The position numbers and the translations under genes are program-made. This document shows positions 2,624-37,126 of a stretch of 43,977 bases of DNA, piece after piece. Location: the NCBI GenBank assembly GCA_018675425.1, contig JABGYD010000075.1:1-43977 (forward strand). The letters are read 5' to 3'. How positions within the stretch are numbered: position 1 is the stretch's first letter; the number at the start of each line of letters is the position of its first letter. The notes under the pieces are model-generated. The model did not search any database and was not told the origin of the DNA. It saw only the letters and a list, made by a program, of their open reading frames with translations. This stretch comes from Kordiimonadaceae bacterium. GTDB taxonomy: Bacteria > Pseudomonadota > Alphaproteobacteria > Sphingomonadales > Emcibacteraceae.

Positions 2624-4132
2624 ATGAAGATTAGTGACAAAGAAAATAATGGTTTAAAACGTGCTTATGAAGTAGTTATTTCAGCTGCAGAAGTAGACAT
2701 AAAAGTAGATGCGGAAATACTAGAGTTACAAAAAACAGTCAAAATGCCAGGTTTTAGGCCTGGAAAAGCTCCAGTTTCGCTATTGAAAAAACTTCATGGT
2801 AAAAATCTACTTGGAAAAGTTCTTGAAGAAACGGTAAATGAGACCTCAGCCAAGGTATTAGAAGAAAAAGGTGATCGTCCGGCAACTCAACCGAAAATCG
2901 AGGTTGTTTCTTTTGAAGAGGGTAAAGATCTTATTTATTCAATGGAGCTAGAAGTTGTTCCGGATTTTGATTTGCCTGATCTTGCTAAAATTAAACTTGA
3001 ACGCCTCGCTGTAAGGGTTGATAAAAAACAAATTAATAAAGCCGTTAAGAATATTGCCGCTGGTCAGAAAAATTATATAAAAGCTCCCAAAGCATATAGC
3101 TCAACTGATGGTGATGCGGTTCTGATAGATTACATTGGTAGTGTTGATGGCACTGAATTTGAAGGTGGAACAGCAGAAGGACAACAGTTAATACTAGGTT
3201 CAAACACTTTTATTCCTGGTTATGAAGAACAACTCGTTGGTACCAAAGCTGGTGATAAAAAAAATGTGATTGTAACCTTCCCTGAGGGTTACCAAACTAA
3301 AGAGCTTGCTAGTAAAGAAGCGATTTTTAAAGTTATTGTAAGGGAGGTTCAAAAACCTGAGCCCTGCATGGTTGATGACGAGCTTGCAAAACGTCTTGGT
3401 CTTCCTGATCTTGCTGGTCTTAATGACGCCGTTAAAGGTCAAATTGAAAATGAGCACAGTGACTTAAGTCGCACACACATTAAGCGTGCTCTTCTTGACG
3501 CACTTGCTGATGCGGTTGATTTCGAAGTTCCAAGCAATATGCTGGAAATGGAAAATACTACCATTATGCAGCAGATTAAAATGGATGAGCATCGAAAACT
3601 AGTTGCTGAAAATCCAGAGGCAAAACCAGAAGATGTTGATGAACCATCTGATGATGTAAAGGGAGAGTATGAAGCTATCGCTCTTCGCCGTGTCCGTCTT
3701 GGTCTACTTCTTTCAGAAATTGGTAGTAAAAATGATATTCAGGTCAGTCAGGACGAGGTAACGCGTGCTATTTCTGCTGAAGCACGTAAGTATCCAGGTC
3801 AGGAAAAGCAAGTATTTGAGTACTTTCAAAAAGATCCAAATGCCATGGCACAAATGAAGGCTCCGCTATATGAGGAAAAGGTCGTTGATTTCATTCTCGA
3901 GCTCGCAAAAGTTACTGAGAAAAAAGTTTCTTCGGAAGAAATGCTCGCAATTATAGAGGCTGAGGATGATGACGTGGCTGTGAAGAAATCAACAAAGAAA
4001 AAAGTAATAAAGAAAAAAGTAATAAAGAAAAAAGAAGCTTCAAAAAAGAAGGTTGCAACTAAAAAGCCCGTTTCTAAAAATAAAGTTGCAGCTAAAAAAC
4101 TTGGTGCTAAGAAGAAAGTTGCAAAAAAGTAG
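2624..4132 (+). CDS. tig: Trigger factor, ribosome-bound chaperone, with lysine-rich tail
   Basis: Binds the ribosome at the exit tunnel (L23) and shields nascent chains. The N-terminal domain carries the ribosome-docking loop GFRPGKAP near residues 44-51. A FKBP-like prolyl isomerase domain lies at about 150-245 (DGDAVLIDYIGSVDG, later NTFIPGYEEQL), followed by the helical substrate-binding domain to about 440. At 502 residues it is longer than E. coli TF (432). The excess is mainly residues 453-502, in which 25 of 50 residues are lysine and one is acidic. Three copies of KKK separated by VI come from a 15-bp DNA repeat. The start is an ATG with a weak GGTGA site. It is followed by clpP and clpX, the usual arrangement. 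Confidence 0.96.
   Translation: MKISDKENNGLKRAYEVVISAAEVDIKVDAEILELQKTVKMPGFRPGKAPVSLLKKLHGKNLLGKVLEETVNETSAKVLEEKGDRPATQPKIEVVSFEEGKDLIYSMELEVVPDFDLPDLAKIKLERLAVRVDKKQINKAVKNIAAGQKNYIKAPKAYSSTDGDAVLIDYIGSVDGTEFEGGTAEGQQLILGSNTFIPGYEEQLVGTKAGDKKNVIVTFPEGYQTKELASKEAIFKVIVREVQKPEPCMVDDELAKRLGLPDLAGLNDAVKGQIENEHSDLSRTHIKRALLDALADAVDFEVPSNMLEMENTTIMQQIKMDEHRKLVAENPEAKPEDVDEPSDDVKGEYEAIALRRVRLGLLLSEIGSKNDIQVSQDEVTRAISAEARKYPGQEKQVFEYFQKDPNAMAQMKAPLYEEKVVDFILELAKVTEKKVSSEEMLAIIEAEDDDVAVKKSTKKKVIKKKVIKKKEASKKKVATKKPVSKNKVAAKKLGAKKKVAKK
3994..4034 (+). repeat. 15-bp tandem repeat in the tig tail
   Basis: The unit AAAGAAAAAAGTAAT occurs at 3994-4008 and 4009-4023, with a partial third copy at 4024-4034. 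The unit length is five codons, so copy-number change keeps the frame and adds or removes KKKVI blocks in the trigger factor tail. Confidence 0.9.
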
Positions 4133-4233: not shown

Positions 4234-4863
4234 ATGAACAATACTATAGATACCACTATGAATAATTTGGTTCCAATGGTTGTTGAGCAAACCAGTAGAG
4301 GGGAGCGCTCATTTGATATTTTTTCTAGACTTCTTAAGGAACGTATTATTTTTTTAACTGGGCAAGTTAATGACAGCGTTTCTGCACTCATCACAGCACA
4401 ACTTCTTTTCCTTGAGGCAGAAAATCCAAAAAAAGACATAGCTTTTTATATTAATTCTCCTGGGGGAATTGTTACATCCGGACTTGGAATATACGATACA
4501 ATGCAATACATTCAGCCTAGAGTTACCACTATTTGTATCGGCCAGGCCTGTTCAATGGGTTCGCTCCTTCTAGCCGCAGGAGAGCCTGGGCAGCGTTTTT
4601 CACTGCCAAATAGTCGTATCATGATCCATCAGCCTTCAGGTGGCGCCCAAGGGCAAGCAACTGATATCGAAATTCAGGCAAAAGAAATTCTTTCTCTTCG
4701 TAAGCGTTTAAACGAAATTTATGTGCAACATACTGGAAAAAAGCTTTCTGATATCGAAAAAGCCATGGATCGTGATAACTTTATGTCGCCTGCTGAGGCA
4801 AAAAAGTTTGGCTTGATTGACGAAATTTATGAAAAGCGTCCTGAGGGTAACGATGAAGATTAA
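4234..4863 (+). CDS. clpP: ATP-dependent Clp protease proteolytic subunit
   Basis: Serine peptidase that forms the tetradecameric barrel fed by ClpX or ClpA. The 209-residue length is typical. The catalytic triad is visible as Ser107 (QACSMGS), His132 (MIHQPSG) and Asp181 (DRDNFMSP). The N-terminal part includes the NSPGG oxyanion loop near 74-78. AGAGGAAAA precedes the ATG. It lies between tig and clpX, but 163 bp separate it from clpX, so the pair may be only partly cotranscribed. Confidence 0.98.
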
Positions 4864-36126: not shown

Positions 36127-36238
36127 CCGCTTACTTTCACATGCAGGTATTTGTTTATTCTTTATATATTAGGATCGACACGCCGGTGCTCTTATGAGCT
36201 CAGAACTTGCAGAGGATTAACCGGAAAAGGAAATTATT

Positions 36239-37126
36239 ATGGCTATGCCCACGTTTACTATGCGCGACCTGTTAGAAGCTGGTGTTCACTTTGGACACCA
36301 AAAACATCGTTGGAATCCTCGTATGGAGGATTATATTTTTGGTGTTAAAAATAAAGTTCATATTATCAATCTCTCTATCACCGTTCCTCTTCTTCATCGT
36401 GCTCTAGAACAAGTTCGGGACGTAACTGCGGCGGGGGGGCGTGTACTTTTTGTTGGTACTAAGCGTCAGGCTTCTGGACCAATTGCTGAGGCAGCGAAAC
36501 GTTGTGGACAGTATTATGTGAACCACCGCTGGTTAGGTGGTATGCTGACTAACTGGGAAACAATTTCAAAATCTATCAAGCGACTTAATATTCTCGATGA
36601 AAAACTTGCAAATGATGTTTCTGGTCTCACTAAGAAAGAGACATTACAAATGACGCGTGAACGGGATAAGCTTGAGCGCTCATTAGGAGGGATTAAAGAA
36701 ATGGGTGGTATTCCCAGCGCTATTTTCGTTGTTGACACAAATAAGGAAGAGCTCGCTATTGCCGAAGGTAAGAAACTCGGAATTCCAGTGATTGCAGTCT
36801 TAGATACAAATTGTGATCCAGAAAATATTGATTTCCCCATCCCAGGTAATGATGATGCAACCCGTGCAATTGATCTATACTGTAATTTAGTGGCTGATGC
36901 AGTTCTTGATGGGATCCAGCAGGAACTCTCATCGGCAGGTGTTGATATTGGTGCCATGGAGCCTAAAGTTGAAGAAATTCCGGGAGCCGAAGAGGTGGCG
37001 GTAGAAATTATTTCAGAAAAAGTTGAAGAGGTTGCTGTAGAAGTTGTTTCAGCTAAGGTAAAAGTTAAAAAACAACCTCCGGTGAAGCCTGTCGCTGAAA
37101 AAGAAAAAGCTGAAGAAAAACCTTAA
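36239..37126 (+). CDS. rpsB: 30S ribosomal protein S2, with charged tail
   Basis: Component of the small ribosomal subunit that binds late and helps recruit S1. The N-terminal signature is [19 protein letters not shown], and the second is the [10 protein letters not shown] segment near 202. At 295 residues it exceeds E. coli S2 (241). Residues 251-274 are two copies of a 12-residue unit EEVAVE(I/V)(I/V)S(E/A)KV. They are followed by a lysine- and proline-rich end. AAGGAA is seven bases before this ATG; a second ATG two codons later is also possible. tsf follows after 30 bp. Confidence 0.97.
36989..37060 (+). repeat. 36-bp degenerate tandem repeat in the rpsB tail
   Basis: Two in-frame copies, at 36989-37024 and 37025-37060, encode [12 protein letters not shown] and [12 protein letters not shown]. 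The nucleotide copies differ at several third positions, so the duplication is not recent. Confidence 0.8.

Follow-up and report, generated by a model that had tools for sequence, protein, structure and literature searches.

The trigger factor encoded by tig in a Kordiimonadaceae bacterium ends in a tail of 50 residues, half of which are lysine. The lysine tail on trigger factor is real, family-wide and recurrent in Alphaproteobacteria. Trigger factor is the model ribosome-bound chaperone of bacteria, and its affinity is usually ascribed to a single loop docking on L23. The explanation that we prefer, and to which we lend about half of our confidence, is that the tail acts as a fast-evolving electrostatic tether to rRNA, supplementing L23 docking. 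The tail has repeatedly been acquired and lost inside a single class and is also found on the ribosomal proteins S1 and L21, which provides natural pairs of trigger factors with and without it. Such pairs allow one to ask whether charge alone tunes the residence of a chaperone on ribosomes.

Within the window, the whole stretch of 43,977 nucleotides of contig JABGYD010000075.1 that was analysed, tig occupies positions 2624–4132 of the plus strand and translates into 502 residues, followed by a TAG stop codon (4130–4132). The window carries tRNA genes, followed by tig-clpP-clpX-lon-hup and the nuo operon, with gene names taken from the translations except for those tested here. The tig product matches the equivalog model TIGR00115 over residues 11–425 with 376.8 bits (cut-off 180.2), and the domain models Trigger_N (1–144), FKBP_C (160–237) and Trigger_C (263–426) follow each other in the order expected for Tig. 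These models identify the core as that of an ordinary trigger factor, in which the Trigger_C chaperone domain (3410–3901, plus strand) is the last curated domain ahead of the tail. The loop GFRPGKAP (residues 43–50; 2750–2773, plus strand), located from aligned trigger factors, includes at residues 43–48 the pattern GFRxGK, which we take to be the ribosome-docking motif of trigger factor; the loop itself is presumably the L23-docking site. Positions G43, F44, R45, G47, K48 and P50 are invariant in the 32 aligned trigger factors. L23 docking of such a loop is consistent with PMC7005732.

The lysine-rich tail comprises residues 453–502, encoded at 3980–4129 of the plus strand with codon 453 starting at base 3980, and contains 25 lysines and one acidic residue (one Glu, no Asp), exactly the coordinates and counts given by the initial annotation. 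As the annotation says, most trigger factors end near residue 430–450, and the tail lies past this point. Trigger factor of E. coli (1w26) shares the domains and the docking loop with the source protein and can be aligned with its residues 1–441, whereas it is 432 residues long and lacks a lysine tail. Its residue 428, four residues short of its end, aligns with residue 441 of the tig product and the alignment stops there, indicating that the tail is an addition past the usual C-terminus. A tail-free end near residue 430–450 is a usual rather than an obligatory feature of the family, to which the 502-residue source protein is an exception. Core and tail are linked by an acidic joint apparent in the sequence, EAEDDD (residues 445–450; 3956–3973, plus strand), which is present in relatives from the genus too.

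Such lysine density is not reproduced by chance. When the entire protein was shuffled 2,000 times, the most lysine-rich window of 50 residues contained 12.8 lysines on average and 21 at most, compared to 25 observed, and shuffles of the core alone gave at most 16. For a protein whose ribosome binding is inferred from its family, 25 lysines in 50 C-terminal residues exceed a level of 30%. The lysine codons AAA and AAG are used in a ratio of 38:9 in the core and 15:10 in the tail, at a similar GC3 (0.25 and 0.26), so that no excess of AAA marks the tail. AlphaFold2, run on 32 rows, returned a mean pLDDT of 83.6 with residues 452–498 below 50, and the tail is therefore predicted to be disordered. 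Two tandem repeats lie on the plus strand within it: an exact 15-bp repeat of 2.7 copies (3994–4034), encoding KKKVI units, and a degenerate 33-bp repeat of 2.6 copies with 77% match (4039–4124). The KKKVI units were not found in the tails of the relatives examined, which suggests that the slippage is recent in the source lineage. Judged by its sequence, the source tail appears to be of Lys/Ala/Pro-type ancestry and to have drifted toward KKKV/KKKVI units.

The A-rich homopolymers in the tail region could have pointed at a frameshift or assembly error at the 3' end of tig. However, the same-genus trigger factors examined over their full length, 75–79% identical to the source protein, show a lysine tail in that frame too, right after the same core end, and one of them comes from a complete, single-contig genome (G012). 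The reading frame of tig is hence not in doubt; a frameshift as source of the tail is ruled out, and we give an error at this site practically no chance. The search for lysine-rich C-termini among homologues, proposed alongside the original observation, thus returned tailed relatives, and neither of the outcomes named there as fatal, a lack of such relatives or a frame error, occurred.

To score tails uniformly, we required at least 8 lysines in some 30-residue window past core residue 448 and a net charge of at least +5; this rule, set in this analysis, excludes borderline basic tails such as that of S1 in G012 (11 Lys, 8 acidic). In the order sample (60 genomes including the source, trigger factor examined in 56), the tail is present in 53 of 56. 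The three exceptions are a protein cut by the contig end (G033), one with a mixed acidic and basic tail of 94 residues (G036) and one without a tail (G043). Across the wider alphaproteobacterial sample of 141 genomes, 39 of the 131 trigger factors examined are tailed and 92 are not. Thalassospira, Erythrobacter, Novosphingobium, Micavibrio and Sneathiella provide tailed proteins among the named loci, and Rhodobacteraceae-type trigger factors there stop 2–3 residues past the core. A Pseudomonadota sample, which covered search-returned loci only and is small and biased (13 of 74 genomes from outside the class), showed the tail in 0/13 trigger factors from other classes and in 4/15 newly examined class members. 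On a tree of 105 trigger factors (43 tailed), the tail must have changed state at least 7 times, with 5 of these changes forced by supported branches. One locus with a run of N and no stop codon (L112) was counted as tailed in the tree and in the GC3 analysis and omitted from the charge test; a duplicate of G016 (L062) was kept only in the GC3 analysis. A record titled Stygiobacter (Ignavibacteriota; L069) displays an alphaproteobacterial-type trigger factor placed within an alphaproteobacterial clade, and is probably a mislabelled or contaminated bin.

Tails of the same kind occur on other proteins of the source genome. A scan for KKxxxKKxxxKK gave 20 matches, 18 of which fall in tig (6), S1 (4) and L21 (8); the remaining two lie in a 29-residue frame and in a 199-residue hypothetical protein ending in KKPIPKKKVKKKK (contig C25, L142:1495–2094, minus strand). 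Since the reversed control pattern gave 13 matches, the raw counts are no evidence, and in-frame tails alone were counted. As a census of the proteome, the scan covers only tails with this spacing. The pattern KKxxKKxxKK matched once; the match lies on C63, a long way from S1, where no KKxxxKKxxxKK reading frame was found. A search with the tail profile A2 recovered tig and, weakly, L21 (E 0.97) only; as it missed S1, the profile is insensitive. The identities of S1 and L21 are confirmed by domain models (S1/PRK06299 and Ribosomal_L21p). The S1 gene lies on C63 (L144:1489–2934, minus strand), and its product ends in a repeat of some 18 residues, present in four nearly identical copies of the type DAEPAKKKAAPKKTAxKK. 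L21, whose lysine-rich tail spans about 64 residues, is encoded next to L27 and obg on C76 (L157:1444–1941, minus strand).

L21 is tailed in 25 of the 31 order genomes examined. S1 is tailed in 13 of 30, namely 11 genomes of the source genus plus G038 and G039, and in 0/10 other family members examined, so that its tail is nearly genus-confined. The same scan found tailed trigger factor and L21 in G012 and G015, where L21 was assigned from match positions beside L21 matches, and tailed trigger factor alone in G041; for G015, four pattern matches without a locus (2629641, 2763360, 2841808 and 3028764) are left out. Over the class sample, both proteins are tailed in 16 cases, trigger factor only in 18, L21 only in 8 and neither in 59 (Fisher p = 1.7e-4). 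Once phylogeny is corrected for, the co-occurrence is not significant: the few independent pairs (5) divide into ~2.4 changing the same way, 0.1 the opposite way and 2.5 not differing, with a median p of 0.5. ClpP, encoded just downstream of tig (4234–4863, plus strand), served as negative control and is tail-free in 100 of 100 loci, compared to 54 tailed trigger factors in the same loci, on which ground a genome-wide habit of tailing proteins was rejected. G012 has a protein ending in KKKPARKKAAPKKKAK whose sequence reads like that of a DNA enzyme, DNA topoisomerase I (TopA; L458). Such tails are consequently not ribosome-specific.

The initial annotation had offered low-complexity drift in an AT-rich genome as one origin of the tail. 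The wider class sample does not support this for the presence of the tail: from the lowest to the highest GC3 bin, tails are found in 5/18, 4/23, 12/17, 10/24 and 8/49 trigger factors, with a peak at middle rather than lowest GC3. AT-rich drift behind tail presence is thereby rejected, although lysine density does track GC3 (Spearman −0.61 between lysine fraction and GC3 among tailed proteins). Composition thus tunes the density of lysine and does not explain the presence of the tail. In the pooled set of 274 rows (116 tailed), which includes the named loci and the order, median GC3 is 0.54 for tailed and 0.77 for untailed proteins. A more general form of the argument, in which slippage and compositional bias keep generating Lys/Ala repeats at an end that is simply tolerated, without selection, is a serious contender that we nevertheless hold to be rather unlikely. 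The tandem repeats inside the tail, the GC3 dependence of lysine fraction, the repeated state changes on the tree and the fast turnover (tails 44–55% identical to the source tail, compared to 75–79% for whole same-genus proteins) all agree with it. On the other hand, an end that is merely tolerated would hardly be kept in nearly the whole order, be commonest at middle GC3, spare ClpP and recur on ribosome-bound proteins of the source genome, and such strong basicity is unexpected for neutral repeats.

Another polyanion might also be the partner: the tail could bind nucleoid DNA, mRNA or polyphosphate and position trigger factor or polysomes nearby, or form condensates, as H1-like tails do. The H1-like pattern noted initially is real, in the form KKxxA, and common to relatives, and residues 451–502 weakly resemble the histone H1-like Pfam family HC2 (PF07382) at 16.6 bits, below the cut-off of 40; this resemblance is one of composition only. 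According to PMC9239181, the KPAA-type tails of AlgP are DNA-binding and necessary for the spacing of polyphosphate granules. The tails of AlgP/PhaF and histone H1 are, like that of trigger factor, disordered Lys/Ala/Pro repeats, but they belong to nucleoid or granule proteins and not to chaperones, and that of AlgP is far longer. The TopA-like protein fits with such binding too, whereas the known sharers of the tail in the source genome are ribosome components, and we consider this option unlikely. Far less probable still is neutralisation of the acidic core by the tail, which would aid solubility or let the cradle shield itself. It is suggested by the exact balance of −22 (core) and +22 (tail) in the source protein; however, tail charge does not follow core charge in 42 tailed trigger factors (rho −0.02, p 0.88), and acidity is lower in cores that bear a tail (median −31 versus −38.5 for those without). 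The absent correlation disfavours charge balancing of the core, and the balance looks like a coincidence of the source species.

Among the options raised initially, ribosome affinity through rRNA is favoured on the indirect evidence that L21 and S1 of the source genome carry this tail too. In the tether mechanism, the N-domain would dock on L23 as usual, and the disordered tail would contact nearby rRNA, or polysomal RNA, in a non-specific manner. These contacts might slow dissociation of the chaperone or speed its rebinding at the tunnel exit. Repeat slippage would supply variation, while selection would maintain net positive charge and not sequence. Contact with rRNA and an altered residence time are what we infer; the tail is observed to keep its positive charge while sequence and length turn over (37–84 residues within the family, with a positive net charge). 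Tail retention across the order, the intact docking loop, the predicted disorder, the company of L21 and S1, the class-wide co-occurrence of trigger-factor and L21 tails, the analogy with Ebp1 described below and the tail-free ClpP support the tether. The 92 untailed proteins of the wider sample, the weakness of the co-occurrence test once phylogeny is corrected for, the near confinement of S1 tails to one genus and the tailed TopA-like protein speak against it.

Several published systems display comparable arrangements. Ribosomal proteins carry low-complexity, often C-terminal ends, lysine-rich ones being typical of L21 (34/45), and nucleic-acid binding was suggested, not tested, for them (PMC6821194). 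Both those L21 ends and the trigger-factor tail are C-terminal, at least 30% lysine and located on a ribosome-bound protein, which applies to L21 of the source as well. The words "trigger factor" occur 0 times in the main text of that paper; lysine-rich ends being known for L21, their presence on trigger factor appears new. No description of such a tail was recognised in the literature searched, with subscription journals mostly outside it, and the accessible chloroplast trigger factor and polyphosphate literature yielded no precedent. Human Ebp1, which sits on uL23, uses its lysine-rich C-terminal extension to hold on to an rRNA expansion segment (PMC7005732). Like the source protein, it is an L23-docked tunnel-exit factor with a basic C-terminal extension of about 50 residues, which in Ebp1 touches rRNA; unlike it, Ebp1 is eukaryotic, has an unrelated fold and binds a eukaryote-specific segment through a helix. 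It may thus be regarded as a functional analogue and a precedent for an L23-docked factor with a basic extension. The lysine-rich ribosome-binding motif of beta-NAC (PMC5986199) offers, by analogy, a further precedent for a tether. In mosquitoes, RpL23a and RpS6 bear H1-like extensions (cited in PMC11764897), which are independently gained lysine tails, although on eukaryotic ribosomal proteins and not on a chaperone.

A bolder picture can be drawn, which we regard as improbable. The KKxxA tails of trigger factor, L21 and S1 might be interchangeable, be gained and lost together and form a basic disordered layer outside the ribosome (tunnel exit, back of the 50S, mRNA platform of the 30S). Within one polysome-scale assembly, this layer would keep the chaperone and the ribosomes together with a polyanion common to them (rRNA/mRNA, nucleoid or polyphosphate).

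Other unusual protein ends were observed. Ribosomal protein S2 in the window (36977–37123) ends in a repeated Val/Glu/Lys segment of two 12-residue stretches, followed by KKQPPVKP; this is a further low-complexity ribosomal end, though not a strongly basic one. Just 5' of rpsB, positions 36138–36236 match the Rfam rpsB sRNA (RF01815, 41.4 bits, cut-off 40). Trigger factors from L118, L134 (Sphingobium), L071 (Micavibrio) and L083 (Parvibaculum) have His/Asp/Cys-rich C-termini (HVHGSDCGHDHHHDE, EHDHDCGDDNCSHESH, GHNHDHDHDHDH), which resemble metal-binding tails and stand alone or N-terminal to lysine blocks.
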